Shown piece after piece: positions 15,314 through 53,435 of a DNA stretch of 64,000 nt. The stretch spans positions 1,141,367-1,205,366 of the forward strand of contig FN649737.1 in NCBI GenBank assembly GCA_000310025.1, written 5' to 3'. Position 1 is the stretch's first letter. Each line of letters begins with the position of its first letter. Origin of the DNA: Ectocarpus siliculosus. Its lineage: Eukaryota > Sar > Phaeophyceae > Ectocarpales > Ectocarpaceae. Both the position numbers and the translations under genes were made by a program. Under the pieces are notes generated by a model. It searched no databases and was not told the DNA's origin. It saw only the letters and a list, made by a program, of their open reading frames with translations.

Positions 15314-18300
15314 TCAAGGACCAGCCGCAAAAAAACGCGCCTCCTCTCCCGTCCGCAACGACTCCATGCTCACAGAATACCAATATATGCCTCCCTCGAG
15401 AACGCCTCGCTCGTTCGATGGAAACCCTGCCTCATTCTGTTCAATCACTTCGTTGCCGTCGACGTCCAACAGTACCAGCACCGCGGTCAGCTGCGTCCGG
15501 CTCAGTACTCTCAGTCGCGGTGGCTTAACGCCAAGCGGCCTGCCATGGCTCTTGTCGCCATTTCCGGCACCTGCAGCAGCAGAGGTGCTCTCCACGAGCC
15601 GAAGAGAAGCCGCAGAAAGTTCGCCCCCGTTCCATACCACATCCACTTCGTACCCGCCCCTAGTTCTCAGCCCGCGGAACGTACCGGCTGGCCACTCATC
15701 CGGCAGGGCTGGGAGGAGGCGCACATCTACGGTATCTGAGGTAGAGAGCGGGCCTTGCTCGCTTGAGCTGTTGGAAAAGAGATTGCCGGCCGCACAGGAG
15801 CCAGCGGTAGGGGGTCGACCCGATAACGACGTCGGATGGGCCAGGCAGGACGGGGGGAGGGGGATTATTCTCACTTGTTACTTGCCCTTGGTCGTTTGAC
15901 GATTGACCACAGCTCTCTCATGATAAACACTTCCTGCAGTCGGGTGTTCTTGGCGTTTCTCTGTATGTTTCCTCCATTTTCTATGCACACATACCAAAAT
16001 ATATGTTAGTCTTGTCTCCCTTCTAATTGGCATTTTGGGCTTACCACCATCTACCTCCCAGTCACAACGATTGTTTTGTCACTGTAGCAACTCTCTCATG
16101 ATAAACACCTCCTGCAGTCGGGTGTTCTTGGCGTTTCTCTGTATGTTTCCTCCATTTTCTATGCACACATACCAAAATATACGTTAGTCTTGTCTCCCTT
16201 CTAATTGGCATTTTGGGCTTACCACCATCTACCTCCCAGTCACAACGATTGTTTTCTCACTGTAGCAACTCTCTCATGATAAACACTTCCTGCAGTCGGG
16301 TGTTCTTGGCGTTTCTCTGTATGTTTCCTCCATTTTCTATGCACACATACCAAAATATATGTTAGTCTTGTCTCCCTTCTAATTGGCATTTTGGGCTTAC
16401 CACCATCTACCTCCCAGTCACAACGATTGTTTTCTCACTGCAGCCGAATTCGCTAAACTTACCTGCGCCACAATCAACGTTTTAACCATCGCTTTTTTAA
16501 TACTGTAGCACATTTTGCAATGACACGAATCTTATTATATTTTGCCTTGTCACATCGGCCATGTCTTCGAACTTTCTTCCTCCGCTGTCATGCTGTGTAC
16601 TGGTACGTCTCTTCCTCTGTTTCTTGCAAGTCTAGGTCCCCTACTCGAAATAAAACAATATTTTTCTCACAGTCCATTGGGCCATGGAGAAAGCAAGAGT
16701 TGCCGTTCTCTTTGCGTCATGGAGACTACACCTCCAAGTATTTTCTGTCGTTCGCTACCTTCCTTTCCCTTTCGGGTGTCACAATCATGACAGCGTCCGC
16801 GTATTTCCATGGCAACTCTCTTTTATCCTCCAAAGGATTCCATCCCGTATCTCCCGTTCATTACGCCTGATCTGTTGCCATGTTTTCTGATGTACTGCGG
16901 CATCCAATCATATTTCTGCTGCCTCCCTTGCTGATTTTCCCATATCCCCATGTTAGTTCCCCCCCCTCCCGGTGTTTGCCGTCGGGGTTGGGTTTTCGTC
17001 GCTTGGCAACGACGTTGTAAAACAAGCCCCCCCCCTCGGTGTTCATAATGGTGGTCGAGTAGATCATGTTGTGCGGGGTAGAGAAACCTCACTCCGCGCA
17101 AGGGGGATGATCGCACCACGTTGTGTTAAATTGGTCAAGCACCCTCGAGGCAGTTACACAGTGCTCATAACTGTCTCTGGAAGTGAATGCACCAGAAAAT
17201 AAATTAAGTCATACGCAGCTGTCATCCGTACGCAAGGAAGTAAGCACAAGATGCCCAACACCCTTAGCAAGATGCAGCGCACCCTTCATGCGACTCGCCG
17301 AATACCTCACGGCGCTTCGCGCTTGGCGATGTGAGAGCCTGGTCCGGTGAGAACCCGGCGTGCTCCGTCCCGGCTTTGTAGGGATGCGAGGTCAATGGTC
17401 TAACGACTACGGCATGCACGACTATGAGTACCCCCCCCCCCTCATGTTAGTTTTGGCTGCAAGATGTCCTTCGGGCATTGGGCCAACAGTACTCCCCTTC
17501 AACTTCCTCACACCCCTACTAGGTTTCAGTGGAAACATTCCCACGGCAAATCTATCGTATTCCTCTAATAGCTGCTGTCATCTGCACTGTTTCAGGCTGC
17601 CTGGACGACGTATCCTCTCCTTCCCTATATTTGTGTATCCTCTGGTTTGGTAAGTACGCATCGCGTCACCCCGCTACACTCGTCGTTGTATGAGCACATG
17701 GGGGGGTGGCGAAAAAGAACGACATGGAGAGAAAAAGATAACAAAGAGGTAGTGTCACCCCCTCAGTAAGGCAGCACGCCAGCGTGCATTTCCGCGACTC
17801 CTGCGGTCCGGCCACAACAGCGCGAGGATGCAAATTACCTCACCTTGCCGAATGCCGATATTGACTCTGAAGCAACATCTCGTTCACGCCCGCGAGGAAA
17901 CCAAGGTTACCGTCGATCTGAAATGCCGCCCCGTCTCCAGTGACAAGGCCCTCCTCTTTCTTTTTCTTGCTGCTCGTTGCAGTCATGGGCGAAAAACAAC
18001 AGGAACGGAAGAAAAGGAGCAGGGGGAGGGGGGGTGAGGCTAGCGCGCCATACTTCACTCTTGGAAAGAGGGGCTCCACCGACGAGCTACAACAGCATCA
18101 GTTGATTACAATCGACCACCCTAGGATTGGGAGCTAGGGTTGATAGGGAGCTACGGTTGATAAGCTCGTCCTTCGTGCTGTCAAAACAAATACTCCCGGC
18201 ACCACCTTTTTTGGGAAAGTTAGCCTGTGACCACGGGAATCGATCCCGTCAAGTGCTAGACTAGTACGGACAGAAGAAGGTACTGGGCAGAGAGAACGGA

Positions 18301-21300
18301 ACGATTTTTGATGTGAAGAGAACAACAACAACAACAACAACCTCCATTGCTCATACGAAATCGATAGGTATTCGCATAGAAACTAAAACAGGCGTGGTCC
18401 CAGGCTTCCCAGAGTGTTCCTCACTAAATACAAGACCCAGAGCGAATCTGCTTCTCGTGGCACAACAATGAAAAACTTATTGGTAGCATTAGACTACGGT
18501 AGGGGCAAAACAGAGTCCAACGCTCAAACTCGGGAGGCCTCTACAAAAAGCAGTAGATTACTTCAAGTGCCAAACGATGGTTTTGTACCAGAAGTCCCCC
18601 TGAAAATGACCTGGGCACGCTCACACTGCCGATGAATCCACGGTATGTTGAGTGTAGACGGGTATGTTGAATGTCGACGGGTCAGTTGAATGTAGACATT
18701 CCCGCTTACCAGGCACACCCACGCGTGGTAACGTCATTGCATTGTGTCGTATTCCCGCCTCGTTCGAAAAACAAACACAAGGACGCCCTAGTACAACAAA
18801 AGCTACCTCCACTCGTATCTAACCTCAAGCGCCGATTCTCTTCCTCCCGGAGTTCGTAGCAGCTAGAGCACTCCTCGAAGTCCTTGCCTCCGATTCTGCT
18901 CAAGGCAGGGTGTAGCGAGAATAGCGATCCCACGCACTGGTCGCGCAAAACACCTCTGAGGGAAGCCAGCGCCTCGGTTCCCTGAAACAGTCTGGCCTGA
19001 AGGTTCGCGAGCCAGGTCCTCGACCATGCCGTATGACCGCCTTTCGTTCAAAATTACAAAACCGGCGGAAAACATGAAAGTATACTACCACCTGTTGATG
19101 ATTCGTTGAACCTGGGTCATTTCTCGGGTAGGACACGCAGCACACAGCCTGAAATCAAGTTGAAATCACGCGGTGTTGTGGGTGGATACCCCGGCTTGGT
19201 ACCAAACACCAGTACGGAAGAGCCGTGCCTTGTATCAACAGTCAGGTAGCCAACGAAGGAAGGAATAGTTGGTTGGCACCGCATCAACACTTTGAACCAA
19301 GGTTGTAGGACCAGAGTGGCTAAGTGCAGTGCAGGTTTCATTGAGGCCGCCTGTGTGTCAAGAACTGTCGAAGGTGTCAGGCTTTGACCACGAATACAGT
19401 CCCAATCCAGTCCCAATCCAGGTAAGGCTTGCGTGTACCGTACGGAAGGCGAAGGTTCAGGTCCTTGGTCAGAAGGCAGACTTTTGCGAAATATGTATGC
19501 TGCCGCAATAAACGCCGAACAGAACGGCAGGAACACCGCGTGTAGCAATGGCAATTGTTCATGGTCACCCACCCGCATTGCTTATCTTGTACTGAACCGT
19601 AGCCGCCGCTGCGTCAAAGGCATCCTCCCCTTGAGACGGAGATATCTGGGGTCGGGAAAAAAAGGGGGGAATGTGGCATGTGAACGATATCCTGCGACAC
19701 TGTCTCAACTCGCTAGACGATCACCGTATCACTATCACTATCTACGGGCCCGGCATATGGTCCACCCGAGACACTTCTGACCATGCCACCAGCGTAACCT
19801 CGTTCCCCGGCAGAACCGACCATGGTGATCATTCCCTTTCGCCGACAACATGGCAAGGTATCGGTGTTCATCAATTGCACACCCCCCCGAAAGAACAGGC
19901 CAGCATCAAGAGCCAACCAAGCAAGGTGTTGGTTCTCTTAGTTCTCCGTGACGCAGCGGACCGCGTCTTGTGCTGGCAAGACGAGTGGTCACTTCCTAGG
20001 TCTCATGCTTTTCACGCACAACCAAAATCAATCCCACACCAAGAACGGCGACAGAGGGCGCGGAGGGGAACCTCTTTCACCGGAAACCGAACGCTTTTCA
20101 TGATCGCCAGCTACGAACTGAGTCTACCGCAGCCGCCCGGCGTGTGGAAGCACACTAAACAGAATAGAAAAAACATACCCGATGTGAGGACCAGGCTGGA
20201 GCCACTTCAACAATGGCCTTATTCAGCTTACCTTGCAAGAAAATAAACACAATTACGTGTCAGTGAGGGCCACTTGACTTGCAGCACAGGTGCCTTGAAA
20301 CTATTCCACCGGTCGAAAACCGGCCTCACCTTGTCAGACATCAATAATACGCAATGAACTACCAGCATCTCCTTGTGCGATCAGCCACCAAACACCCCGC
20401 CTTCGCACCTGAAACCCGGGGTAGAGGCCCCACAGACCGGAAAAATGTCGGTGTCCGGGATCGGGCAAATCCGACGTGTCGACGCCCCTGTACTCTCGTA
20501 TCATTCCGTCTCTTCCGACGGACGGGTGACCTCTGTTGGGAAGCTTCGAGAGCGCTTCCTGGGACCGTTCCGAAAGGCGGCGCAACCTCTCCGAAACTGC
20601 CAGGAAAGTGCTTCGCACGGGATTGTCGGTGGGGTTGACAAGGAGCTCTTCTTCTCGCCAAGGGCCTGAGTTGGGAAACGCCAGGGAACCATATAGAATT
20701 GGCGTTCGAGGGAAGGGGCGGGGGGGTGTACTCATAGTCGTGCATGCCGTAGTCGTTAGACCATTGACCTCGCATCCCTACAAAGCCGGGACGGAGCACG
20801 CCGGGTTCTCACCGGACCAGGCTCTCACATCACCAAGCGCAAAGCGCCGTGAGGTATTCGGCGAGTCGCATGAAGGGTGAGCTACATCCTGCTAAGGGTG
20901 TTGGGCATCTTGTGCTTACTTCCCTGCGTACGGATGACAGCTGCGTATGACTTACTTTATTTTCTGGTACTTTCACTTCCAGAGACAGTTGTAAGCACTG
21001 TGCAACTGCCTCGAGGAAGCTTGACCAATTTAACACAACGTGGTGCGATCATCCCCCTTGCGCGGAGTGAGGGTTCTCCACCCCGCACAACATGATCTAC
21101 TCGACCACCACTATGGTTACCGCCAAAAAAAAAACAGAGGTGAAAAAAAAACGGTAACCTGGTTGCCGAGTTCACGAAGTGAATTGGCTTCTTTTACAAC
21201 GTCGTTGCCAAGAGACGAAAACCCAATCCCGATGGCAAACACCGAGGGGGGGGCTTGTTTTACAACGTCGTTGCCAAGCGACGAAAACCCAGCCCCGATG

Positions 21301-24300
21301 GCAAACACCGGGGGGGGGTACGGGGGGGGGGGGGGGTNNNNNNNNNNNNNNNNNNNNNNNNNNNNNNNNNNNNNNNNNNNNNNNNNNNNNNNNNNNNNNN
21401 NNNNNNNNNNNNNNNNNNNNNNNNNNNNNNNNNNNNNGGGGGGGGGGGGGGGGTACCCATAATCCTGCATGCCGTAATCCTTAAACCATTGACCTCGCAT
21501 CCCTACAAAGCCGGGACGGAGCACGCCGGGTTCTCACCGGACCAGGCTCTCACATCACCAAGCGCGAAGCGCCGTGAGGTATTCGGCGAGTCGCATGAAG
21601 GGTGAGCTGCATCCTGCTAAGGGTGTTTGGCATCTTGTGCTTACTTCCTTGCATACGGATGACAGCTGCGTATGACTTACTTTATTTTCTGGTGCGTTCA
21701 CTTCCAGAGACAGTTATAAGCACTGTGTAACTGCCTCGAGGATGCTTGACCAATTTAACACAACGTGGTGCGATCATCCCCCTTGCGCGGAGTGAGGAGT
21801 GAGGAGTGAGGAAGGGGCGGGGGGGGGGGCATTGCGTATCGTAGTCAATGAGAGGTATGATCACGTGTAACTGTATTTACCTGCCTACAGAAAACTTGTT
21901 TGGTGACGGCGTTCCGATAAGTGTCCCTTGAACAAACAGCAATGACGTTGCATCTTATCGAAGCAATCAAATCCTGATCCACATGCGGATTAGACGGGAC
22001 AAGCAAACGAGCATTCGCCCATTCAACGGAAACGTTGCGACCACAGAGGAAAGCTGCGACGAAAAGATTCAAACGCCGAATTTTTAAAATATTTTTCAAC
22101 TCTACTGTTGTTTCCAGTTTCAACCGTTGTTGTCCCAATTTCCTCGGGGGTCGAAAAGTTCAGTGGATGGGTGAGATGTCCGTTTGCCCTTCAAGACTTG
22201 ACCTCGAATCTGGATATCTTTTAGGAACTGATATCTTCGATATCCCGGGGGCTGTATTCCATTTCTCCTTTCGTTTCTCGGGAAATATATTGTCTGTTAG
22301 GGAGGAATCAGTAACCAGGCCCACTCGAATGATGAATAACGCATCGATGGGTGCAGAATGTGACTGTCTTCGTGACAAAATCCTTGGACTAGACTACTTG
22401 TCCCGACACGTTCTTGTATTTCACCACTGATCGAACCACCGCCTTGCACAACAACCTCTGGCAGGCGAGCTTCATGGCAGTGCTGCTGTGGTTAACCATG
22501 GTCACGTCGTCGCATGCGCAAGAAAGTTTCTAAACTTCGGGAGCATGCCCCGCCGTTCAACCTGAGAGTAACCGCCTTGAAAGACGGCATGCCCATTGCC
22601 GATCACAGCTATCGTATCACTCGTCATCACACTGACATAACACGATTAACAAGACGGTTCCACCCTAGGTGCGACGCTCTTTTCCAACTTCGCTTCACAA
22701 CCTCGGCGACCCACGCCAACGGTTTCACGCCTACACCTCACACCTACGACCTGCATCCGCGGAAACGTCCCTGTACGACAGGCACCACATCTCCAAACCA
22801 CATGCACCAAAACTCCAGTATGCGGTTCATCACGTTGAATAAGAACATCCTCTACTTTGTAACCTCAAGCCTCGAGTCTCAAGTGATTTACCCTTGGGGT
22901 TGAAAAGCCTCGGAGCGTGTTCAGTCGCCCAGTCGGACAGTAGATCCGGCGAAGACGAGCTAGCTGTATCGAGCAGCGCTAGCCACACGGCGGCTTCCCG
23001 AGACGCGTCCACGAAGTTCTCTAGCAACTGCCGCACAATCGATACATCTTTCATATTGGGCCAAGAGGGTCCCATCGAGACCACAAAGGGGGGTGGGGGG
23101 GGCGGGGTGTGTCATTGTTGCCTGACACGGGTGTATGTGTGTACAAGGGGGGTCATGACACGACAGGCTAACGACGGTGAAAAAAATCCAAGGGATATCT
23201 GGCAAACAGCCGCCAAAAAGGACAAACTGCACCGGAAGCCGCATTTGGATTAATCATTTGGACGAATCAATACCAGACTTCAATGTTGCCGAAAAATACC
23301 ACAAAAACAATTGAAACAGAAAAACCGAATGTACGTGGCTTTACGGGAAAGCGCTTCGTTCTACCAGGGCTGTCACTCTCGTCGCACTAAATTATCTAGG
23401 CGGGAAAAGTATTGGAAACAAACCAAAGACGTGGTACGGAACAACGACGAAACGACATGCCACGCCATATGGTACGTACGTAAATTAGCGAACGAACACC
23501 GCGATGACCAATAACTACGACAAAAAAAGGTGAGAGGATTGCTTGACAGACACAACAGAAGAGGTGCTCACCGATGGCAGGACTCATGACAACAAAGGGA
23601 AACAACAGCTCGGGTGGTGGTTTTGGCTTCGGAACTGCTTTGCCGCTCTTCGCGGCCAGGGCGCGTCTGTCTTTTCCCTCGGCTGCGGCTGGAGGAGGGC
23701 GGTTCTGGAGAACGTTCTTAACGGCGGGGAGGCTGTTCTCCGGAGAGGTGCTCGGACCTGTGAGCAGGCACGTGCCGTCCCCTGTGATTAAAAGGTGGGC
23801 AAGGAGCAAGGGAGAGAGAGAGGGGGGGGGGGAGAGAGACAACATAGAGAGTCAGAGAGACAGACAGAGTCAGAGGGACAGAGGGACAGACAGAGAGAGA
23901 CAGAGAGAGACAGAGAGGCAGAGAGACCGCCAGACAGCCAGCCAGTCAGCTAGCCAGCCAGCCAGCCAGCCAGATAGGCAGACAGAGAAAAAGAGTGAGA
24001 TATACAGAGAGACAGCAAGATCTTGAATCTTTTCAACAACCACGCCAACAACCTTATGTGCTAAGGGCCGTGTCAGGAAACACGTCCGCAACCGTTTCAA
24101 TCAGCGACAGGGGCGATACTCGTGTCAACGATAAAACACCTGACAAGCGAGGAAGGTCATCAACGAAAACATTGACGACCAACCAAATTATTCAGCACCG
24201 CCGGCACCCACCTAACCCGTCGTCTGCCAAAACCATGTACTCCAGGAAAAACAAAACAGCGCCTTCGAGCACAGGCACAACGGACGCCAGCAGCACAGGT

Positions 24301-26137
24301 ACGTCTCTGCCGGGAGCAACAGGGTGCAAGGACGGGACGCGGAGTGGTTGGGATCGGGCGCGGTAGCTCTCATGAGAGGAAATCTTTCCGGGCATTGCGC
24401 TCATGAGCGGTTTGGGGGGGTTGACCTTGTCGTCTCCACCTACCATGACCATTTCAGCAGCCCCGACGTGTAAAAACGCCGAGGACCAACAGACACAACC
24501 AGCGGCGATGCTCCAAGATGTTGTTCATCGCAACGTTGTGGCGGCCCCGCAGGACTCCTTAGGCCCGCCTGACCAATCAGGTGGTTCTGCTTCACCTGGT
24601 GTACTCGTACGCCTCCCAGAGGTGGAGGGCCATCCATGCGCCGCACGTGGGACACAGGGCCCAGACCGCGTCACCGTGAGCGGCCGTCCCCCCCCACCTA
24701 TCCGTGTTGGCGTGGGAAACCCAGCCTCCGGCACGGTAGTAGCTGGAAAAAAAATATATATATATTGGCAGTAACACAATGAACGACGAAAACGACGATA
24801 GCGGACGCGAAGGTTGGGGGGAAAACCCGCGGCTGTCAACGAAGCGTCGTGAAGGGTAAGGTTTCTCTGATCACGGAGAACGTAAAGTGTTCAACAACGG
24901 TGTGCCGTGTTAGAATACCAACTTCACATTGGCCATGTCTAGTCTTACCACGTGTGTGGTTTGCTTCCTTGACAAATCTTGTCTCAACAGAGACAGCAAC
25001 ACGAAACAGGACGTGCGTGTCAAACCCCTTTGGAAGCCAAAGCCCTTCGTACTCTGAGTTGCAACACCACCACAACAGGGCGTAGAGCACTGAAACATTT
25101 GTCGACGACAGGGAGTCTTGTTCCTTGCCATGGGTGTGCTTTGTCGCTTGCCATTGTTGGCCAAGGGAAGGGCCTATACGCAGGGAGTCATGACAACATA
25201 ACTCAACAGCCCAAAGTAGAGAAGCTCCGAGAGAGCCCGGTACTCCCTACCTGTGCGCCGTTTGCCTCCCACCGTCGCTCAGCGCCTCTACAAAAGGAAC
25301 GAGGGGTGCGGCGCACTCTGGTAGCCCCGCCGTGTGTGCGCCCCAGTAGTTCATCTGGAAGAGGCATGCGCGGAGAGGGTGGGTGGGTGGATAGGCTTCC
25401 GACACAACGTTCCTAGATGATGCATAACCTAGTAGCCCTGAGCCTGTACTCTTTTCAGATGCGAGGTGGGAGGGGATTACCGGTACGCCTGCAAGAACTT
25501 TTTGGGGGTTGCCTGGACACGACCATTCTGCCACTGCTGCTGTCGATTGTCACAGGCTGGGCACGGTGTTACCATCGACAAACAAAGCGGAGGGAGTCTA
25601 CACGGTAGCAAACAAAAGCCAGCACAATCGCGATCCTAACACACGCTTTTATAATGAGCAAGGAGCGCATATTTCTTTCTTATTTCGCGCCCGGAGGGTT
25701 GTTTCCTCGCCTCTCTTGCATGGCCAAACCCACCGCATAAAACGCGTCACTCTCTTCCGAGGTGCCACAAGACAGAGAGAGAGGTTGATCAATCACAGTC
25801 ACCACCACCTCATGCTGTAAGGGTTGCTGTGCAAACTACTTGTGACGCAAAGGATGAGTCATGATTCACTCATGCGGCACCTGCAAGTTGATGTTCATGT
25901 GGTAGTCCCCTTCCCACTTGGCCTGTAGAGAGTTCGCCCAGATCCCTTGTAGGTTAAGAGGCCTTCCCCCCGGACGGCTACCGCTGATCATGAGGTACCT
26001 TCGCACGTTGGCGAGGGTCGCGAGGGGAAAAAACACGCCGATGAGGAGGCAGAGAGAGAGAGAGACAGAGAAACAGACAGAGACGGAGACAGAGAGACAG
26101 AGAACAGAGAGAAGACAGACAGAGAGAGAGAGACAGA

Positions 26138-26211
<74 letters not shown>

Positions 26212-29200
26212 TTTTCGAGAGGGGAGGGCGAAGGGTTACGACAGCTACACATACTGGCACTACGGCAGGGACGAGTGTCTCACTATCCACACCGGGAGCT
26301 ATCTGAATGACTGCATCTGCCGCTGAAGAACAAGCTGCGCATGCAAACCAAAGCGCGCTCGCCGTCTCGGTGGAAGAGGAAAAAACAGGAACAGAAGTCG
26401 GAACCATGGTTGGTTCGCGCGTAACAAGACCAATGATCCACGTTGGCAACAACTGAAGGAAAAGCGGATAAATCTTCGCGAAAGGGAAGAGGCGTCTACA
26501 TTGACAGTCTACGCATCACGACCCATGTAGAAAGAGCGACAATAAAACACGAAACAGCACAAACACGTGTAGTTAGTGCGGAAATGCGTGAGACCGAACG
26601 TGACAACATCGACGTTTTTCCTCTTGTGCACTCTCGAGGGCGGGGAGCGGCCACCACCACAGAAAAACATTGCGCACCCACACACACAGCCGGCCACCAA
26701 ACACGCCTACACTGACCTGCCGTAGTGGTACATGAGCTCCACCAGACCGTCATCCACAATCGTTCGCTCGGCCAGCCCTCCCCCCCCTCCGTTGTCCGGC
26801 CCCTGTCCCGTGATGCCCGCACCCTCCCCTCCTTTCTCAGTACACGCCTTCCCCGACCTCGCAACCCTGGTTCTGATTGGCAGACCAGCGACGCAAGACC
26901 TTGAAGGTGAAATCGACTCCCGGTCTCCCACCCCACTGTCTCCACCGTTCAATCTTCTCTCCCCGCCAGCAGCACCACCGCCAGGAACGCTGGGGCCAAG
27001 AGAGAAGTGGACACGGTCGAACAGCCCCTCCACGTCTTCGACGTGCCGCCTCCTGAGCTCCTCGAAACCCAACCCGGCCGCCGCTTCCACCCTGGCTAGG
27101 CATCGCCGTCGCAGGCCCTCCGTCTCATCATCGCCATCATCATCTCGCGCTTTCTCCTCGGTCACGACCGAAACTAACATCATAGCCTCGCTGCTCGCCT
27201 CGGCAGCGGAGAGAGCGATCCGGTGTCTTGGGGTCGGGTTCCGGGTGGGTGGTGCCTGCCCGGCATTCCCTTGTGAGGGCCCCCCGCGGGAGGGACCTTC
27301 TGCCAGCCTCGCCATCATGCCCGCGTTTCGCGCCGGGGGGCCGCCGGGAGCATCGGCCAGTCTCGCCATCATGAGCTTTTCCTCGGGAGTCTGTGGGACG
27401 GATGGGGGGAGCAAGGGGAGATTGAGTCCATGTCCTGCCTTCATGAGACTTGCAAAAGAGGATCCTTGGCGATGTCTGCACGACGGGCTGAAAGGAAAAA
27501 CTGGGCGCCATTGCTGGCTGGCTTTCCGACAAGCCAACAAAGAGATTCGGGGAAATTGTGACCTGACGCTGTGCTGAAGGAGCCCCGCTCAGACAAGTGC
27601 ATAGCACCGGTCGGGAAAGCGAAAACAAGTGTTCCATTGTTTGGGGGCAGCTGTCGAACCATACCGTCATCTCAAAACAAATCAAAGCGACGCTACACTA
27701 TCGGAGCATTTCCCCCCTACTTTCCACTAGAGAATCCCCCATGTTTCGTTTGAGGGAACGGGTCTTCAGCACCAACGGCAGAACAACGCAGCAGCCGACC
27801 ACTCGACGACGAGACTCGAAAAGACGACAGCACTTCAACTCAAGCACGAGTACACAGCATGGGGTGCGGACCTACCTCCTTGTCACCAGCAGGTCCTTCG
27901 GGACGATGTCGCTCACGCGGCGAACTCGGATCGACGTATTCCTCCGTGACGACCCCCGACCCCTCCCCGACCGACGGAAACACCGCCACACACACGTGGA
28001 AACCCATCTCGGCTTTCTCGCCGTTCCTCCCGGAGGGCCGGTAAAGACCGACGTAAGCGCCTGCGCCCCAGCCTACCGTGTCCCCGCCGGCGCCTCCGTT
28101 TTCGTGGCGTTGAGCTCGCGGGGGGGGCGGCGGGGGGAGTCGACCCGCCGTGGTAAAGTGCGATTTTCCTTGCCGTTTCGGCGTCGCCACGAGGCTGTGT
28201 ACGGGTGCACGGCCGCGCGAATTGAGGGGGGGGATGAGGGAGTGTTTGCGTCCGAAAACACATCAGATCTCATCGCTGCATGGATCAATGTTTCCCGCCG
28301 CATGTCGCTTTGATGACTTAATCGTTTGTTGGGTGTGTCTCTGCTCACGGGATCTCTCTGTACAAACAAGAGAGGGATAGACGCCGAGCGCTTCATGTGT
28401 CTGTTTTCAACAGCCAACCCCGGCGTATTTCCTCTCTGCGAAACAAAATAATGTTCTCACTCGCATAAGCCGTTTGCTTCCTCGCGTGCACCCCACCGGC
28501 CAGCGTGCCCCCGACCCCTCACCCCGCAGCTTCGAAGACAATAGCGAAAACACCAAGCAAGGCCCTAACCCGACAAAACTCTTCCCCTTCCCCTCAAGTC
28601 CACCAGTCTGTACCACACGCACGCAGCACCCAAGAAGGCAGATGCGTGTCGCACGTGCTTACCTCAAGCAGCCTCTCCCGCTCTCCTCCTCCTTGCAGCT
28701 CAGGCGCATCGCCAGCACACCGTCCACGTTGCTGGCAAACGCCTCCCTGTGGTGCACCAAGCGGCGCTCGCGCTGGCCTCTGCTCGCGCCAAAGCCGAGG
28801 CCGAGGCCGAACCCGCCGCTGTCAGGCGGACCCTTGGAGCTGAATGTGGCCTCCGCTAAAAAAAACAAGACAACGGAGACGGGGAAAACCGATGGGTGAC
28901 AGCTTGCTGCAAGAACGCTTCCGGCTGGGAAAAAAATGTGCCCGGCACAGGGACGTTATGTGTGAGACAGCGGGGTTTGGGTGAAGAAAATAGTCGAAAA
29001 CAACACGGGGGGGGGGGGGGTCACAATGGCCGGGTTCGCTTGAATCCAAGGTCAGGGAGGACAAGCCGAACTATCGAAGGCCAAAAATGGCGACTAGCGA
29101 AGGGAGAAAAAATTACGCCATACACGAAAGACACGTTCTCGTTGGACCAAAACCACGCCGGCGTCACAAAAAAAGGCAAGACAGCAGTGACGAATATAGT

Positions 29201-32200
29201 AGCCGTGAGTGAAAATCCTCGACTTCACCACCAAACAGAAACGACAGCGGGTGGTGTACACTTCGATGAGCAGCGGCTATCTACGGCTGAGAAGACAGGT
29301 TCCGGTGACGAGGGGGTAAAACACCAATACCAATACGCAGAACGAGTGTTGGCTGGACTGCAAGAAAACAATGCACGAAAACGAAAAACAAAAAAGGCAA
29401 GCACCACAGAGGCAAGGTGAGAAAAACAAAAACAAAAAAAAGTGTCGGTGCTACGTTCTTCCTTTGTGACCCCGGCTGATCAATCAAGTATACCGAACGG
29501 AGCAAACTGGCGCCAAGACTGGATTAGATTAGACTAGATTAGATTAGATTAGATTAGATGGGACGAAAACACACATACGACACACGACACACGACACTCA
29601 CCGGTGCCGTTGTTGAGGTGCAGGTGGCGAATGTACCCGTCGACGGGCCCCTCCTCCCGCTCCCCTCCCGCCTGCTGGCCGCCGCCTTCGCCGAACTCCA
29701 AGTGCAGTTCCCCCGCATACTCGAAAGACCCCACGAAGCCTTCTGGGCTGGTGGGCATGCGGCCCGCAGCCTCCTGGGCAGCGTGAACATCTCCATCAAG
29801 GAGCGATTCCCGTGCACTCCGAAACTTGTCATACCTTTGGAAGCGGACACAAACAAGGGGGGGGGCGTAGTGAGGTTTTGGGGGCAGCACGGCGGCACAA
29901 GACAAGACCAGACCGTGGCGCCCGGCACGGTATTGAGGTGGCGTCGGCGCTGCGCTGGGAATGTCTACTGCAGGTGGGGCGGCGGTGGTTATGAACTACC
30001 AGGCGCCGCTTGGTCATGGCGATCCGCGGCTGTGTCGCGGCAACGTTGCCTACCTGACTAGCGGCCAGTACCAAGAGCAGAAAGGGCACCCAACGTGGAA
30101 TAAAACCGTAAGGAAACACCGTAAAAGGAATCGGAAACGAAAGAGAACGGCCGGGGATAGTTGGGCCGTTCGCTCGGAGGGATGCAACGACACCCGGCCA
30201 GGTGCCTTGAACGCTTGAGCTGCTGGCTGGTGCTTTCGAGATTCGTGGGGCTACACGCTATGCGGTCCTTTTCCACATCATGACCGCGTCCGGCACACCA
30301 CAACATTCACCAAGCTTATGACGCATGTGACAATGAACGAACGGTGACAAAAGAGTCGTAAAACAGACGACACACCTGGAGCGAACTGTGTTAGCAACGT
30401 TCAGGGCGGGAAAAACGGCGTTCTGAATCGAACCAATACCACTACCACGGCACAAGCGCAAAGAGCAGGACGCCACCATTATTTAGCGAAAAGCACTATG
30501 TGCAAGTACATGGCAAATGGTAAGAGGCAAAAAAGCGGCGGCATTCTGCGCAAACACGGGTATGGCTAAATACGTAGACGGGAACTGTTGTTTCGAATGA
30601 CAAATCTAGCACGTCATACCCAAGTCATGTATGTAAGGTGCAAGGTGTATGTGTGTATGTATAGGCTGCCGTGTAGTTGCCCACCTGTCCGGAGACAGCG
30701 GGAAACCCGAGGTAGCCCCGCCTGCCTTAAGTTTTCCCTTTCCTGCCCACAGACTGCCATGGCTCATGAACATGGTGTCCTAAGTTTGGTTCAGAGGCGA
30801 GCACAGCAAAATGTGATAGGGAGAAAAGCACGCACAAACACCAGAGGAAGGTGAACTTTTCATACCCATCATGCTCCGAGAGATTGTCGCCTAAATAGCG
30901 TTTCCTGCGCTGTCATTCACCCAAGGATAGAGGATAGAGATAATAGAGACAATTTGCTCCATGCAAGATTGAAAAACTCTCCAGCACGATACATACGACT
31001 ATAGTATGTACTCGACGCAAGGCAGACCCGGCACGGCGACAGTGAAAAGGAAGTGATGCAGTGGTGAAGTGATGACATGAAAAGGAAGCGATGAAGTGAT
31101 GCATGGCATGTCCGACACAACGTCCGTGTCAGCTAGCTACTTTAGCTGTGAGGGGAGACAAGAGTGGCTACCGTTTTGTGTATGGTACGTGAGATTGTGC
31201 TAGAAAGCTCCAAATGGCGACCTGGGAGAAATAACTGCCGACGTAGTACAATAGATGCTCGGGAGCATCGAAAAAAACATTCGAGGAGTTGGATGCGGAG
31301 GTTTGGGACGTGTGAGATGGGTAACAATAACATTTTCAACACATAGGGGAGTCAACGAAAGGAGGGAGGGATGGAGGGAGAGCGAGAATGTAGCTTGCTC
31401 TTTCTGTCTACCTCCTTCTGTCTTCCTCCTCTCTGTCTCTCTTTCTCCCTGTCTGCCTCCCTGCCTGCCTCTCTCTCTCTCTATCTCTATCTCTGTTGCT
31501 CTCTCTCCTTCATCAATAGTTCTTCGTTATCGCACCTTAAACGTCCCCATGCCCAACATCGCCCCAAGATACCCGTTGCCCAGGGCGTAGCTCGTCGTCC
31601 AATCTGCACCAGGCTCGTCATCCCAAACGTCAAGGGCATGGACACCTATAGTAAAATAGCAGAACGGATCACAAAGAACGGCAGATATGCAAATGATTGT
31701 CCTGAGGGGTGTGTGTGGGGGGGGAGGGAGACCTGCTCCTCTCCTCCAGCGCTCTTAAGGGGCACGTCGGGATTGATTCATGTACGAGAAAATCGTCTGG
31801 CTTCGCGAGAGGAAGTCAACAACCACTTGTGGTGCAAATCGACCTCTAAATCAGCGCATGCGTCGATTGGGTCCAAAGATATCTCGAAGAACCCCTCATG
31901 TATTGGACATCTGTGGCTTGCCGTCTGGACCTGTGCAGGTTACACAGGGTCACTTGCCTGGTAGAGGTCACTGGTAGAGTTAGGCCACGACAGTTCTCAC
32001 GTGAGGACAACAGCACAACACTATGTAACATTCGACTACGACAATGGCCACAACCACGACGATGACGACAACAACTTTCAACTATGGCAACGAAGACAAC
32101 AGAAGCAACAACAGCAGCAACAATAGCAGCGACACCATTCAACGATTACCACGACGATGCCAGCAACACACGTGTTGCCCCCAATGGAAAAATTACCATT

Positions 32201-35200
32201 TTTATTTTATTTTGCAGACATTACAAATCCTGGAATCACAACCCCTGGCGGTCCCTCCGCATGGAGTTTTGAGTTATTCTGCTCTACCTCTCGCTGTGGT
32301 GCTGATCCCTAATCGTGTACATCCGATATGCCTTGCTCACACATATAGACGCCCACACCCCGATTTCTGTCAGGTTTGGTTAAGGTTAGGTGTTCAGCAA
32401 ACGACGTTGAAAGTTCGGTGCGTGCTTCCAGGCTTGGATTTCTAGTTCGAAGTATGATGTTTTCGGAGGTAGACGCATGATCGCTGTTGACGCATATCTG
32501 CTGACCACGCTGCTGACTACTTGAGCATAAACTTGAATTTGGGCCGACTTTCGCAGGCCAACTGCGCTCCCTGCAGTGCTGATCCCCAATCGCGCACATC
32601 ATAACATCGTTCTATGGTCTTTGATCTCCACTGTGGCCAAGTATCGGCGGAATCGGGGGACTGCAGTGTTTCAGCAATCCTAGGTGAAAGTTGGCTCACA
32701 CGAGCTGAAAAGGTTGCGCGCAGCAGCAGAAAGCTGGTTCAACTCAGATGTGATCGTGAGGCATTTCTCACATCCAAAGCAAAATTAAATGGTGAAAACT
32801 GCTTTCCGATGGAGGGTATGACCTGCGTGAGGTGCCTGTGTACTTTGGTGGCACGCCGAGGTCTGTGTGAGGAGCACGCGGTGGTGAAAGGACTGGGCTC
32901 AGCCATGTCCAATCTGGGGAGGGGATGAAACAAAATTGACCCCGCTGAAACCGTCGGCGTGATTTTTTGTCTGTACTTTTTTCAATTTTGTGTAGGGGGC
33001 AACACGTGTGGCAACAACGACACGCACCGGCGGGAGGCTCCGCGGCAGCGTCAGGGCAGCACTGCACCGGCGGCGGGGGGGGTTCCTTGCCGTACCTTGG
33101 CTTCGGAATGGTCTTATCTTCCTCATCTCTGACGACGCCTGTCACAGGACACAAGCAGGGGACGTATGGGGATATGGAATGGCGGGTGCTACGGGCCAGG
33201 GTCGGTTTCTTGCTGGATAGACACGAGCAGACGCCAAGCATGCTACATAGGAGTGTCACAGTAGACACTTCCTTGTAACCCCCCTCCCTCCCGCAAATCT
33301 AACAAGATGCAAAAATCTAAGGAATTATTTTCTTGCGTGCAGCCTTGGGTAGTTTGTACATGAAAATCGGTATCTGAATTTGGGACCGGACCCACACGGT
33401 GCTGTCTCCGTTGGACGGGATGGTCCAAGAACTGGGACGAGTGTGGGACGAAAACCTGTTGAACACTCGCTCGAAATCGGACAAAGTCATGCTACAATAC
33501 ACAGCTAGACTGACAACAGTGCCAAACGTGCCCGCTGCCTACCTGTCCGATAGAGCAATAAACGTCTTTGCAGTGTTGCTACGTGTCGCACTGCACGGAT
33601 CACCGACCGGCGGCAAGCCGCCTTTCGCATTTCGACTTTTGCATTCCACCACAAGCAGCACGAACACGCAGATTGATTGGGGGATACACACCTGATCTCA
33701 ACCCTGGGACACCTTCGTTTCGCGTGCCCCCCGCGTCCTTAAGCCAGCAGATCATCTCCTTCAACTGCAGGGTCCACTTGAGGCAGCGCCCGTCCCTCAC
33801 GCAGAGCGATCGACATTCCTTTAAACACGCAAAACAAATAGAATCGGTCATCAGCAATGCCAAGATGGCATGCGAGACAGAGAGCGAACAACTCCGGGGT
33901 AAGGCGTAAGGAACTAGGACCCGGGCCAACCAGGACAGTCACATCCACGAAAGATTTTCGAGCGCGCGCTGGTTCTTGTGGCCACGGGGGCTAGCTAGGC
34001 AGACACAACGACCGATGATAGTTCTAACTGATGCTATAGACTCTCCCACTTGTATTGTTCCTCCCCGCCTCATCCATAGCTCCGACCCCCGAACAACCGC
34101 AGACGCTTTGGCCTATGACCGGGCACGCTGGGGTTATGGCGGGGGGCGGGGGGGGGGGGGGGGGGAGGCGCAGCTGCACACCCAGCAGAGGATCCAGCAA
34201 CGGAATACGAACAACAGTCAAAGGCACGCTTCGACAAGGCGTTATTAAGGGTGGCGTATTTCACGATATCCGAAACGAAAAGAAACCGCGAGAGTCTCAC
34301 ACACCTTCTCGTCCTCGACGTTCAAAGGCCCGACTCCTTGTATGTCTCCTCCCTTGTAGTCGACGCTGTGGTAGACGCTTTTCAGCAGCGTAGTTTTTTT
34401 TCCTGTCGCCGTGGACGGCCTCTCCTTGGGTGTCTGAATCGAAGGGAGGGGGGGCGGGCGTTGCAGAGGGGGTGGTTGTCGAACTCCTTGGTCTACGTTC
34501 ACCTCGTCCCCGCCAGCCGCGTCGCCGCCGCCACCGCCGCCTTCTGAAGGCAGAGAGATCCTCCCTCCACCCTCTCCCATGCCCCTTACCCCTCCCCTGT
34601 ATTCTTGCGGGGCCACCTCGACAGGACGCTTCTCGTCGACGTTTTCTCGTGGTAGGCGCGTCAACTGGATCACCTGCACAAGTATTGTAGGGCGTACAAG
34701 TCTTGTGTGCAATTCACCCGCGCAATGTATCAGAAAAGCTGTCTGGGAACATCCTTGGTCGATCTTGGAATTTGGGGACCCAAAAATCCATTGGAGCTCG
34801 ACCTTTAGGAGTGCAAACACTGCGGCAAACAAGGCCGGCCGATAGTTGCTTGTTATGGAATAGGTATACTTCACGTTTCGTGGAGCCAAAACTGTATCAC
34901 TCATGGGATCCCATTCGTCAAAACACAATAAATCGGCAATGAACGATCACGCCAGCACTGGCTATGACGCGCTGAGATACCCAGCAGTCAGTGGCCACAA
35001 AAGAGGTGCCTAGTTTGGCGACAGGCCCACTCACCAACCCTGCCCAGAAGCTGAGGAGGACCAGTACTCCTGCGGAGACAATCCAGACAAGCGGGGACCC
35101 GTTGCGAGACCGCCTTCCTCCAGAGGTACGTCTACCGCAAAACAGGGCCGAGTCAAAGAGAGGGGAGATACCGAAGACACGAGAGGGATGTATGGGTGTT

Positions 35201-35274
35201 TTTGAGCATATGTGAGGCGGTGTGGATCGAGCGAGAGTAAGCACGCCGCCGATGCTTCCCAAGATCTGCGCCAA
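15314..35274 (-). CDS. Membrane-anchored PAN-GH95 glycosidase (alpha-L-fucosidase/galactosidase family)
   Basis: Exons, 5' to 3': 35035-35274, 34305-34673, 33692-33818, 31536-31645, 30685-30779, 29602-29834, 28663-28855, 27876-28026, 26717-27390, 25881-25998, 25251-25354, 24596-24742, 24212-24306, 23572-23781, 22892-23047, 20409-20665, 19573-19645, 18824-19040, 17844-17969, 15314-15767. Phases agree throughout, 4149 nt, about 1382 aa. Exon 1 encodes basic residues and one hydrophobic helix ([17 protein letters not shown]), so a type II signal anchor is likely. Exons 2-3 form a PAN domain ([10 protein letters not shown] to ICWLKDAGG). The rest is full-length GH95: [47 protein letters not shown] and the C-terminal LLPALPDEW. 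The Asn pair, Glu and Asp matching the catalytic residues of bifidobacterial AfcA are kept. Expected role: exo-hydrolysis of fucose or galactose ends on wall polysaccharide, in the secretory path or at the cell surface. Exon 1 start and the exon 18/19 junction are least certain. Confidence 0.92.
15911..16442. repeat. Tandem repeat, three copies of a 178-bp unit
   Basis: The unit beginning CTCTCTCATGATAAACAC recurs at about 15913, 16091 and 16269, an exact 178-bp spacing. Copies differ by only a few C/T changes (for example CACTTCC/CACCTCC). The array lies in the last intron of the minus-strand GH95 gene. Near-identity suggests recent expansion. No coding function is seen. Confidence 0.9.
16949..17452 (-). 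mobile_element. Short non-autonomous element flanked by a 10-bp target-site duplication
   Basis: About 484 bp bounded by C runs on both sides, with CATGTTAGTT directly repeated just outside (16949-16958 and 17443-17452). The body includes a block GGTGTTTGCCGTCGGGGTTG-like, a GCGCAAGGGGGATGATCGCA block, and the end block GGGATGCGAGGTCAATGGTC followed by GAGTAC and a C run. It is the reverse complement of the copies at 20.7-21.8 kb. It has no coding capacity and lies in the last GH95 intron. Confidence 0.75.
18204..18345 (-). repeat. Dispersed repeat, inverted partner of 37555-37770
   Basis: Shares with 37555-37770, in reverse orientation, the blocks GGGAAAGTTAGCCTGTGACC, CAAGTGCTAGACTAGTACGG and GAAGGTACTGGGCAGAGAGA, next to (AAC)n on this strand. 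On the minus strand GGATCGATTCC resembles an RNA polymerase III B box (10 of 11 to GGTTCGANTCC). It lies in the GH95 intron between exons 18 and 19, and may be a SINE-like element. Confidence 0.6.
20709..21829 (+). mobile_element. Two head-to-tail copies of the poly-C-ended element, split by a gap
   Basis: Copy one (about 20720-21335) and copy two (about 21450-21830) share long near-identical blocks with each other and, inverted, with 16959-17442. Copy one carries two tandem ~65-bp subrepeats (TTTTACAACGTCGTTGCCAA at about 21192 and 21259). The string GGAAGGGGCGGGGG occurs at both outer ends. The left end is within about 50 bp of the acceptor of GH95 exon 16. Confidence 0.7.
21338..21437. other. 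Assembly gap of 100 N
   Basis: Exactly 100 N flanked on both sides by long G runs inside a repeated element. The round number means the true length is unknown. The repeat and G run probably caused the break. Confidence 0.99.
23805..23980. repeat. Compound purine microsatellite (GA, GACA) passing into CAGC-type repeats
   Basis: GA and GACA runs with a 10-base G run, then repeated CCAG words at about 23930-23975. On the minus (coding) strand this is a long CT-rich tract just upstream of the acceptor of GH95 exon 14 (23781). Confidence 0.85.
26047..26213. repeat. (GA)n microsatellite
   Basis: Nearly pure GA from about 26130 to 26213, with impure GACA sequence before it. On the coding strand of the GH95 gene it is a (TC)n tract ending about 50 nt upstream of the exon 10 acceptor. 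Open frames of Ser-Leu or Arg-Glu repeats across it are artefacts. Confidence 0.9.
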
Positions 35275-39205: not shown

Positions 39206-39305
39206 NNNNNNNNNNNNNNNNNNNNNNNNNNNNNNNNNNNNNNNNNNNNNNNNNNNNNNNNNNNNNNNNNNNNNNNNNNNNNNNNNNNNNNNNNNNNNNN
39301 NNNNN
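39206..39305. other. Assembly gap of 100 N
   Basis: Exactly 100 N between CGATCGACGG-type repeats on the left and CGACCGACC repeats on the right. The true length is unknown and the order of flanking sequence depends on scaffolding. Confidence 0.99.
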
Positions 39306-39954
39306 GAAGTCCGTACGAACCAGGCCTCCCGATCGACCGACCAACCGACCGACCGACGATCGACCGACTCGACCCAACCCAACCCTACTCTAACCTACCC
39401 TATACCGTACACAACCCAACCACAACCACAACCACAACCCAATCACAACCCGACCGACCGACTGACCGACCGACTGACCCAACCCACGCTCTACCCCCAA
39501 TCCACACCCCTACACCCAACCCAACCCCAAAACAGAACCCGACCAACCGACCGACCAAACCCACCCTGCCCTACCCTACTCCACCCCAACCCAAACACAA
39601 CCCAACCCCAACTCGACCGACCGACCGACCGACCAAACCCACCGTACCCCAAAAGACGACCCTACCAGCCGACCGACCAAACCTACCCTACCTTCTACCC
39701 AACCCAACCCAACCCAACCCAACCCAAAACACAACGACCCGACGGACCGACCGACCTACCGACCCGACCCTACCCTACGCTATTACCCTACCCAACACAA
39801 CACAACACAACACAACACAACACAAATCGCAGAAAAACACAACCCCCAACCCAACCGACCAACCGACCGACCGAGCCTACCCACGCTACCCCGACCTCAT
39901 TCCAATTCGGCCCCAAAACACAATCCGAACAACCGACCGACCAAACCCACCCTA
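39306..39954. repeat. Simple-sequence block of CGAC and CCCAA/CACAA words
   Basis: About 650 bp built almost entirely from GACC/CGACC, CCCAACCC and ACAAC words, with G only in CGAC-type words and very little T. It is not the TTTAGGG-type telomere repeat. The long open frame across it and the gap is a by-product of the composition. It stops exactly where the beta-helix repeats begin. Confidence 0.8.
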
Positions 39955-42900
39955 TTTGGAGGTGCAATCTCCGGGTATGAATCGACCGTGTCCTGTGATG
40001 GCAATGGCACCCAGTTCAGCTCCAACTCCGCTGAATCTGGTGGTGGGACTTTCTTTGCGGAAAAGTCTCGTGTTTCGTTTAGCGGAACCACGTCATTTGC
40101 CAACAACTCTGCTGCATTCGGAGGTGCAATCCTTGCCTGGTGGAACTCGACGGTGTCTTGGGATGGCGACGGCACCCAGTTCGTCTCCAACTCGGCCAAC
40201 GAAGACATATATGAAGATGGTGGAATTGGAGGTGCAATGGTTGCTTTGTGGAACGCGACCGTGTCATGGGTTGGCGACCTAACCCATTTCGAGTCCAACT
40301 CCGCTTCATATGCTGGAGGTGCAATCTACATGGAGGAATCGATCGTGTCCTGGCAGGGCGACGGCACCCAGTTCAGCTCCAATTCCGCTACGGAAGGTGG
40401 AGGTGCAATCTACGCGTATGTATCGACCGTGTCCTGGGATGGCGACGGGACCCAGTTCAGCTCCAGCTCCGCTTCAGGTCATGACGGAGGTGCAATCTAC
40501 GCGAGTCAATCGGCGAATGCGTCCTGGGCTGGCGACGGCACTCAGTTTACCTCCAACTCCGCTGAAAACGGAGGTGCAATCTTCGCGAGTTTTTCGGCGA
40601 GCGTGTCCTGCGCTGGAACCACGACTTTCAGCAGCAACGTTGCGGGGAGAGACGGTGGCGCGCTACATTTGGACAATTTGAACGCCGTGGGATTTGATGT
40701 GGCATTTTCTGACTCGACGTTCATCAACAACAGTGCACAAAACGGGGGGGCGTTGTACTCTTGTCAGACTCTCTGAGTGACTTCAACTTCACGGACGCTA
40801 CTTTCCAGAGTAACTCCGCCAGCGGTGTAGGTGGAGCGGTCGTGGTGTACAACACCGGACGTAATAGCCTCGTTCCTGTGCTATTTTGGAGGTGTACTTT
40901 CTCGGATAACGTGGCAGACATCAACGGCGGGGCTGTTGAAACCTTTGCGGGATACCAAGAGTTTCGGTCCTGTGATTTTGAGGGCAACTCAGCAGGTGAG
41001 GAGAGGCGGACCATTCCGAAGGCAATCTTTTTGTGCGGATGCCGTCGTTTGTGGATTACGTGCTGTCCGAACACCTTTCAATATTGCGTTGCACTCGTAT
41101 TCCCTAGGCACCAACCGGCCCCCATTTTTCCGTTCCGCGAGATATCGGTGGAGCTATGAGACTCGGTGGAACAGTTGATGTCATCGACTGTGCTCTCCAA
41201 CTTCGCTTACACCCGTGGATTGCCTGTTGCTGCGGTCGGGTCTGCGAATATTAGCGGTTCATCGTTCGAGGGAAACCAAGTGTCTTGCGCGATTGGCTCG
41301 TATCGAAGCGCCACAGAAAAGGTATAAAGCAAACGGCTTTTGGGTAAGTCGCTATGCTGTTCCCCGGTAGTGCTGTGTCGTGACACGGTGTCTATACCGT
41401 CGTAATTAATTCGGTGTTTTGTCGCGAATCTCTTGAACCACTCAGGTGAAACACTCCAGTCGTTGAAAGTGATATCTCTCCCACAATACCTCGCCTCCTA
41501 CTACTGTTTGAAAAGCAGGAAACCAGTGCACGCTTCGAAACAGTGTGCCTCGATTGTCCTGCTTGGGACGAGTGTTCCGGCTGCTCCATCGAAAGCGGTG
41601 ACGTCACGCCGACGTGCGAGGTGCCATTGGAGCACACCTCGGCCGACAAAGATGGCCTGACGTTGGAAGCGCTCAAGATTGGCAGACTACTGGCGTGCAA
41701 CTGCGGAAAGCGTCATCATCCTGGCGTGCTACAACGCGCGTGCCTGCAGGGGAGGAGAAACGGGGTCGGACATGTTTTGTGCCCCAGGATACAAGGGACC
41801 ATGTGAGCGCGAGGTGGCTGATAGGAACGTACGATTTTGGTTCTGATATGTCTCGGAAGGTGTGAGAACCCTTGTTTGCATCCACACGTTTCATAACCCT
41901 CTCCCAAAACCTTGCTGCCGCGTGCGCGTGCCCATGTCTACCGTTGCAGATTGCGCCGTGTGCGAAACCGGTTATTCTCCATCGCTTGCTCGTACCTGTA
42001 CACAGTGCTCGAGCTCAAGACGCCAGGGACTATCGGCCGCCGCTCTCATCGTCGCGATTGTTGTAGTCTTCGCAATTGTGACCACTTTTCAATATTTGTC
42101 GTCAACGGAGCTTGAAGACAGGAACCTGACGTGCTTGCATCGAAGGATACTTCGAGCCGTTCCCGTCCAGGCATTAAAGATAATCGTCGTCGTGAGGCAG
42201 ATTTTAACCCAGGTACGCCCTCATCGAACTAACCGGACTGTTTCGTGTTGGAGAAAACCCGGTGTGGAGCGAGGAAGCTCGATAGTAAGCCCTGAGCGAA
42301 AGGACAGGCACAGACTTTCAGGAAATGCATTGATGGTAGCACGCTGGCAGAAGGCTAAAGGCCGTGGTCGGGGGTAAGTGCCCCCGCCATGCCCTAAACG
42401 ACAACACCTGTAAATTAGCTAATGGAAATACATTTTTCTCGCGCAGTATGCTGAAGCGGCCAACGTCACCTATCCTGGCGTGTACCAAGACTTTCTGAGC
42501 GCCATCAACGTCATCAACTTCGACCTCGGTTCCGTGCTCGCAGCTGGGTGCTTATTGTCCGACATGGACTTCCACGACCGACTTTTCGTCAGTACCGTAG
42601 GACTATTGGTTGTTGCTGGATTTTTGGCGGACGCCGTGTCATGCTGATGGGTGTAGTCGTCTTCATCTTTCCAAACGATGCGGCCAAGATAGCGATTACA
42701 ATGCTCATCGCTTTCTCTTTCTTGATTACTTGCGAAATATTGTCGCCTTACACGTCTGAGCCCGACATAAGGCTTTCGCTGGGGGGTCATGTGATTGTGT
42801 TTCTCAGCATGTTTGACTTGTTGCTGCTTAAGGTGGATGTGTCCGGCGAAAGAGAGCAGAGCCAGGCTGCATTTGCTGCAGCGTTGGTGGCAGGCCACGG

Positions 42901-52669: not shown

Positions 52670-53435
52670 GAAAAACACCGAACAAAAAAGAGGGAACAGG
52701 GGGTTCAGCAGTATGCGGGGGGTATGTATGACCACTAAAACGGGATGTGGGCGGGGGGGGGGGTAACCGGTAGGTGAAACGTTACCTAGAGCTCTCACAC
52801 CAGCGCACAGCAGGTGTAGTACCAAGTGTGTGGTGTTTGCACTTTGTTTCCGCCCGCGGACGCACACGTCAGACGACAGTTACATCTATCAGCTGTCGCT
52901 CGTTGTAGCGACAGCTAGTAAATCTTTTATTTTAGTGTACAGCTGTGTTTGTGTGCTCTTTTCTTTGTATGGGTCGTTGTTGGCGAGTCTTTCTTGAGAA
53001 GACCAAGACCTTGGCATCGTGTGTCGCACGCTGCTTTCTCGCTGACCACGATTGCTTATGTAGTATTCTCGGGCCGTAATTCCTCCGCAGACCTATGGCA
53101 AGCTCCTGCTATTGGCTACCGCATGGGTCGGAGGGACGCTCTTATGCTCATGCGAGATCTCCGTGCGTGCATGGTGCGGGTCGGATGAAAGCGAGCGACC
53201 TCGAGCGAGGTAGAGATACAAGAAGGGGCCCGGGCTGACGATGCTGGATTTCGAATTATTCGCTCCCATTTCAAAATCGCCTGCTCATCGATGTTTCCCG
53301 TTTCTGTCCAGGTCACAACCGCAGCAGCGCGAGTTGCTCCTCCTCGTCTCGCTCAAGCAAAGGCTGCCCGTTGGTGTTCGAGGGAACCGAAGGGGACTGG
53401 CAGAGCTAGGCGTAGCAGCGGCGGAGACAGCCGCC

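Follow-up and report, generated by a model that had tools for sequence, protein, structure and literature searches.

Our results showed that a stretch of 64,000 nucleotides from the brown alga Ectocarpus siliculosus (assembly GCA_000310025.1, contig FN649737.1, positions 1,141,367 to 1,205,366), here called the window, encodes a PAN domain followed by a GH95 enzyme. The domain set, the conserved catalytic residues, and the compatible splice borders and phases are observed in the sequence, and the PAN and GH95 parts very probably form one gene. The reading that we favor, with some reserve, is that the product would be a single exo-α-L-fucosidase of the secretory pathway or the wall, with the PAN holding the enzyme near its substrate or a partner.

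Structure of the gene

The model consists of 21 exons on the minus strand, from 35131 to 15314, which together give a single open frame of 1,428 codons and a stop; the 4,288 coding bases are distributed across 19.8 kb. It comprises 17 GH95 exons, two PAN exons, a hydrophobic exon, and a linker exon (33138-33028), and it ends at the stop TGA 15316-15314. When the linker exon is left out, the frame has 1,391 codons. GT/AG borders were found at all 20 introns, and the phases are compatible throughout.

An earlier note, made from the letters alone, had described a protein read through 20 exons with no phase conflict. At the level of the gene this observation is sound: the exons join with neither a stop nor a conflict, and the exon coordinates and span that it named agree with our set minus 33138-33028. 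This exon was apparently missed, the count being 21, and the start was overstated (see below).

The exons are listed here with their window coordinates. GH95 exons 2 to 6, 8 to 10, and 12 to 15 are each based on the joined frame and the GH95 alignment; for the others, the evidence is given in parentheses.

35035-35131, minus: anchor exon, basic stretch and then a hydrophobic helix, candidate signal anchor (good donor, weak acceptor, neutral codon usage, no in-frame ATG)
34305-34673, minus: stalk exon, encoding a stalk rich in Pro and Gly and then the beginning of the PAN (codon score 0.26 per codon versus −0.05 and 0.00 in the other frames)
33692-33818, minus: second PAN exon, four Cys in ECRSLC, RC, and CW (joined PAN_4 match; weak codon score)
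33028-33138, minus: linker exon, acidic and Pro-rich, 37 codons, 111 bases, phase 1/1, possibly optional (splice and codon scores)
31536-31645, minus: GH95 exon 1, start of the N-terminal domain (joined frame, GH95 alignment, solved relatives)
30685-30779, minus: GH95 exon 2
29602-29834, minus: GH95 exon 3
28663-28855, minus: GH95 exon 4
27876-28194, minus: GH95 exon 5, insertion relative to prokaryotic GH95
26717-27390, minus: GH95 exon 6, end of the N-terminal domain, long insertion, start of the barrel
25881-25998, minus: GH95 exon 7, HxNxN with His codon 25901-25899 and Asn codons 25895-25893 and 25889-25887 (alignments)
25251-25354, minus: GH95 exon 8
24596-24742, minus: GH95 exon 9
24212-24306, minus: GH95 exon 10
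23572-23781, minus: GH95 exon 11, general-acid Glu in SPEN, codon 23740-23738 (alignments)
22892-23047, minus: GH95 exon 12
20409-20665, minus: GH95 exon 13
19573-19645, minus: GH95 exon 14
18824-19040, minus: GH95 exon 15
17844-17972, minus: GH95 exon 16, FQIDGN with Asp codon 17914-17912; a possible alternative acceptor lies 3 bases on, past the initial CAG (GH95 alignment)
15314-15767, minus: last exon (GH95 17), C-terminal domain and stop TGA (joined frame, Pfam, GH95 alignment)

The introns also contain repeats. Copies of a repeat of some 360-400 bp, about 95% identical, occur at 20715-21115, at 21440-21797 and, inverted, at 17044-17441. The first two flank a 100-N gap (21338-21437) in the intron between 22892 and 20665, and the inverted copy belongs to the last intron. 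At 7717-7795 there is also a short, diverged piece of this repeat. In the last intron, a 178-bp unit is further repeated three times in tandem (15910-16444), the copies being about 98% alike.

Domains and active site

The Pfam search with the joined protein gave PF22124 (catalytic, in two stretches, 1.6e-103), PF14498 (N-terminal, 5.4e-23), and PF21307 (C-terminal, 7.8e-13), all over their curated cut-offs. PAN_4 was found at residues 136-182 (1.1e-7, 38.5 bits versus a cut-off of 27; 1.2e-9 with the joined domain alone), and the domain assignments proposed before from the letters, PAN_4 and GH95, were thus confirmed by profile. PAN_1 reached 20 bits, slightly below its cut-off of 21.4, and NCBIfam gave no match. 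The sequence has the three-part GH95 layout of an N-terminal beta domain, a barrel, and a C-terminal beta domain. The GH95 region had been called complete; this holds for the domain set, with its three Pfam parts, and needs the qualification that long low-complexity insertions are present and that the catalytic domain falls into two Pfam pieces. The PAN/Apple assignment is based on the family profile over cut-off together with the four core Cys (ECRSLC, RC, CW), and this domain weakly matches the apple domains of plasma kallikrein (3.4e-5), spread across several repeats.

The solved GH95 relatives include 2rdy (5e-71), 4ufc (2.2e-63), FucOB 7znz (1.2e-43), and AfcA 2eab (1.9e-41). At an E-value of 0.01 or lower, nine distinct solved sequences were matched; seven are named as GH95 or fucosidase, and two have no such name. 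In the alignment with 4ufc, counted by hand, the Glu of SPEN corresponds to Glu501 and the Asn residues of HMNIN to Asn372 and Asn374, and catalytic roles have been assigned to these three residues (PMC4491172). The catalytic residues align with those of five GH95 proteins. In the six-row alignment, the Asp of FQIDGN is invariant, and the archaeal row has Asp at the site of the first catalytic Asn. The two catalytic Asn (HxNxN / TxNxN), the acid Glu in SPEN, and the Asp in FQIDGN are all present in the algal sequence, and by these active-site residues the predicted enzyme is a regular GH95.

Junction between the PAN and GH95 parts

The earlier note had taken the Gly codon formed by 33692 and 31645-31644 as support for a single protein. 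The codon is as stated; on its own it is no proof of the junction because a Gly results with or without exon 33138-33028. With the exon included, G33692 and the GC at 33138-33137 make one Gly codon, and G33028 and the GT at 31645-31644 make another.

Exon 33138-33028 is the top-scoring candidate in its intron. Decoys were scored over 12,748 bp of GH95 introns: a single one came level with or above the exon in splice score, and none matched it in splice and codon scores together.

Alternatively, a short PAN protein made of anchor, stalk, and PAN could be encoded by one gene and the GH95 part by a second, which would start in 31.6-33.7 kb. The PAN exon and the linker exon can each read on to a stop (33600 and 32768, respectively), and ATG 33241 is in frame upstream of the linker exon, whose donor is good. 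Only two introns of the model are longer than the one of 1,382 bp between the linker exon and 31645, where a gene border could therefore lie; these two (2,226 and 2,076 bp) both contain repeats, and one has a 100-N gap. Against this, the phases are compatible across the whole 31.6-33.7 kb interval, and the linker exon joins both parts, its splice and codon scores being equaled jointly by no GH95-intron decoy. In its own open frame, the GH95 exon has no ATG upstream of 31645. We also considered the 58 ATG-donor combinations from the PAN exon to 31645. In none of them does a passable donor go together with a leader hydrophobicity above 1.8, so a stand-alone GH95 would probably be without a secretion signal. 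The one combination that extends exon 33138-33028 upstream to ATG 33241 has a leader hydrophobicity of 1.47. Two genes are improbable on this evidence, and the fitting phases, the 58 start combinations, and the scores of the linker exon support the single PAN-GH95 protein that had been proposed.

Start of the gene and probable membrane anchor

The signal anchor described in the earlier note stood in part. After basic residues, the anchor exon encodes a helix with hydrophobicity of up to 2.27 over 19 residues, which could belong to the cytosolic tail and signal anchor of a type II membrane glycan enzyme; on the other side are the points that follow. The frame of this exon is open from 35325 to 34918 and contains no ATG, and position 35274, which had been given as the end of the span, is an in-frame TTG. 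The acceptor score is 0.2 (−0.2 to 10.5 for GH95 acceptors), and the codon score is neutral, 0.00 per codon. The codon score of the second PAN exon is weak as well, 0.12, with 0.10 in another frame.

A soluble secreted or differently anchored form would place 35131-35035 outside the message; translation would then begin elsewhere, ATG 34904 and an exon still further upstream being examples. The lack of an ATG, the neutral codon score, and the weak acceptor of the anchor exon are in line with such a form, and ATG 34904, which shares the frame of the stalk exon, has a moderately hydrophobic stretch after it (1.66). However, 34904-34674 scores as non-coding (−0.38 per codon), the donor of the anchor exon is fair (5.9; 5.0 to 10.7 for GH95 donors), and this exon fits the stalk exon in phase 0/0. 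We consider the soluble form rather unlikely. An N-terminal membrane anchor on the PAN-GH95 protein is likely, and the start would then be supplied by an upstream exon. ATG exons able to splice to the anchor exon occur at 35.9-37.1 kb, e.g., at 36411 or 36399, and the scores single out none of them.

Prokaryotic relatives

In the prokaryote collection, at least 592 stretches matched a pattern, 585 encoded relatives, and 80 loci were retained. A quick tree was built with 81 rows, and in it the alga grouped with two rows from Clostridia MAGs and one from Asticcacaulis (SH-aLRT 91 and 82). The algal GH95 branch is long (2.32), so its place in the tree is unsure; the long branch could indicate a relaxed or changed function.

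Bacterial GH95 enzymes had been said usually to lack a PAN, and this agrees with the Pfam scan of 55 prokaryotic proteins, two of them archaeal, taken from 76 complete ORFs: none had a PAN at E 0.01, and all 55 had the three GH95 parts. Compared with these scanned relatives, the predicted PAN-GH95 protein belongs to a known family but shows a new domain arrangement.

We also considered whether the gene was recently transferred from bacteria. This is unsupported, with a best identity of 36% over the tree columns, the long branch, and 20 introns, in a comparison that covered prokaryotes only.

Substrate specificity

The GH95 family contains an L-galactosidase as well as fucosidases, and one site is polymorphic between them, being Thr370 in the L-galactosidase and His419 in AfcA (PMC4491172). 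The Ectocarpus protein has His at this site. Among 80 prokaryotic rows, obtained from 86 loci by selecting ORFs of more than 600 codons with MNYW, 17 have His, 48 have Thr, and 15 are outside this pattern. A Thr enzyme can be a strict fucosidase, and since the His/Thr site alone does not fix specificity (PMC8245568), the leaning to a fucosidase rather than an L-galactosidase is only a mild one.

It is possible, though we doubt it, that the protein is instead an α-L-galactosidase or a GH95 whose function has changed to sulfated or other glycans. The L-galactosidase within the family, the long branch, and the large insertions are consistent with this, whereas the His shared with AfcA and with 17 of the 80 relatives points to a fucosidase, at a site that is not decisive.

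GH95 and PAN domains elsewhere in the genome

When the GH95 catalytic profile was searched against the 189-Mb genome, all six among the matches listed fell in the PAN-GH95 gene, as did all 12 among the matches listed for a query of 575 protein residues. The GH29 profile had no match in the 189-Mb genome in this exon-wise search, which can miss split genes. This absence is weak because the same kind of search missed the N-terminal domain of the present gene and its own PAN (E 0.01). PF14498 had no match in the genome, despite the presence of the domain in the PAN-GH95 gene, because exons were searched one by one, and the PAN of this gene, split by an intron, scored only E 1.66. Apart from its own four exons, a query from the anchor to the linker found weak matches at two places only (0.013 and 0.079), and hence no clear paralogue.

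The PAN_4 search of the genome gave two exons over the cut-off, on C27 and C1, neither in the PAN-GH95 gene, and PAN_1 gave the same two. The first is the last exon of L100 (C27, about 378729-383017; 730-5018 of L100), modelled as a protein of 680 residues with a basic tail, a hydrophobic stretch (by eye), a sulfotransferase-like part, and the PAN. Pfam gave PAN_1 at 1.6e-7 and sulfotransferase at 0.012 and 0.015, both below cut-off, and the sulfotransferase-like part had no relative in the PDB. Sulfotransferase exons are present in the genome. Like the PAN-GH95 gene, L100 combines a likely carbohydrate enzyme with a single PAN and a hydrophobic stretch at the N-terminus, but it is sulfotransferase-like and its PAN is C-terminal. 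One of its introns is apparently GC-AG (exon end 3286).

The second exon, whose frame closes with a stop, is in L099 (C1, 1256-4649) and comes after exons that read RVLIVDAGQIFFQANPFDI and GVDAGLHDYLLY. These two exons may resemble a glycosyltransferase; Pfam gave no relevant family for the L099 exons. Of the weak PAN exons (L103-L105, L107-L109, and L112), three appear by eye to be half PANs, and the rest do not. These three, L104, L105, and L109 (C17:30645, C2:6145580, and C27:2153265), are sub-threshold and resemble PAN halves cut by an intron, and more PAN genes may exist.

Taken as a module, the PAN would be N-terminal on GH95 and C-terminal on the sulfotransferase and perhaps on the glycosyltransferase, which, from three genes, is a hint. 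A broader proposal, which we regard as speculative, is that the PAN is a shared targeting module on membrane-anchored enzymes that build or trim the sulfated fucose-rich matrix, as one machine in which this GH95 would be the only exo-fucosidase.

Neighboring frames and other observations

Other frames in the window encode a RIO kinase domain (3234-3662, minus), a Kelch propeller (46776-48866, minus), a TLC domain (53214-54350, plus), and a YJL171C/Tos1 cell-wall protein domain (62740-63150, minus). After a 100-N gap (39206-39305), the stretch 39206-40773 holds a PTDRPTD-type simple repeat together with Chlamydia PMP repeats (1e-20).

One light-harvesting protein encoded in the genome matches fucoxanthin proteins; its best match is FCP17 of 9ygv (2e-97), and the next is at 2.1e-57. 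RuBisCO, in contrast to this family, gave no match when searched in the genome. Eighteen light-harvesting matches with identical E-value and score (7.0e-35) are on contigs C92, C232, and C488, mostly several kilobases apart, and two more matches are on C11 and C18. The matches with identical scores could be due either to recent amplification or to an assembly effect.

Discussion

We propose a protein with, in order, a probable N-terminal hydrophobic anchor, a Pro-rich stalk, one PAN, a short acidic and Pro-rich linker, and a complete GH95. The GH95 part would most likely cut terminal α-L-fucose, or perhaps L-galactose, off the alga's own glycans by an inverting mechanism. Glu945 would be the acid, Asn811 and Asn813 would activate water, and Asp1255 would assist (residues are numbered with the first full codon of exon 35131 as 1, which is not the true start). 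For the PAN, a glycan or a protein partner is the probable ligand, and we infer that this domain would retain the enzyme at the Golgi or the cell surface.

AfcA, the α-1,2-L-fucosidase of Bifidobacterium bifidum (2eab), is alike in its GH95 sequence and in the His at the polymorphic site; the Ectocarpus gene differs from it by the long insertions, 20 introns, probable anchor, and PAN. To our knowledge, AfcA has no PAN, and AXY8/Fuc95A of Arabidopsis has neither a PAN nor an anchor. AXY8/Fuc95A is likewise a eukaryote's own GH95 that trims wall fucose, and AXY8 acts on xyloglucan (PMC4052742). Among stramenopiles, a GH95 is also found in Blastocystis, where it is described as prokaryotic-type, laterally acquired, and present in two of three subtypes (PMC5608401); the two are set side by side here by description only. 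CBEL of Phytophthora is another stramenopile PAN/Apple protein tied to cell-wall carbohydrate, but it has CBM1 and no enzyme; in oomycetes, PAN domains accompany CBM1 in wall lectins (PMC3532174). A Pythium survey, in the part available, states that the oomycetes studied have no GH95 and mentions another group's report of GH95 in Phytophthora (PMC3772060).

Among the titles and abstracts listed on GH95 or glycoside hydrolases in brown algae, Ectocarpus, or stramenopiles, or on PAN, none names a brown-algal GH95. In a survey of brown-algal matrix genes, the GH families of brown algae and sister taxa number 21; GH95, fucosidase, and GH29 have no mention in its available text, and its supplements may list GH95 (PMC11468063).

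According to the accessible part of a 2026 review, no glycosyltransferase, sulfotransferase, or sulfatase of brown-algal fucoidan synthesis or remodelling has been fully characterized, and both of the mentions of “fucosidase” there refer to engineered enzymes (PMC13380512). The PAN-GH95 gene is a candidate means by which such an alga would trim the fucose-rich sugars of its own surface. As the sole GH95 found in the genome, with an intact site and a binding module, it is a concrete target for knock-out and assay, and the link through the PAN to a sulfotransferase-like gene provides a handle on finding its partners.
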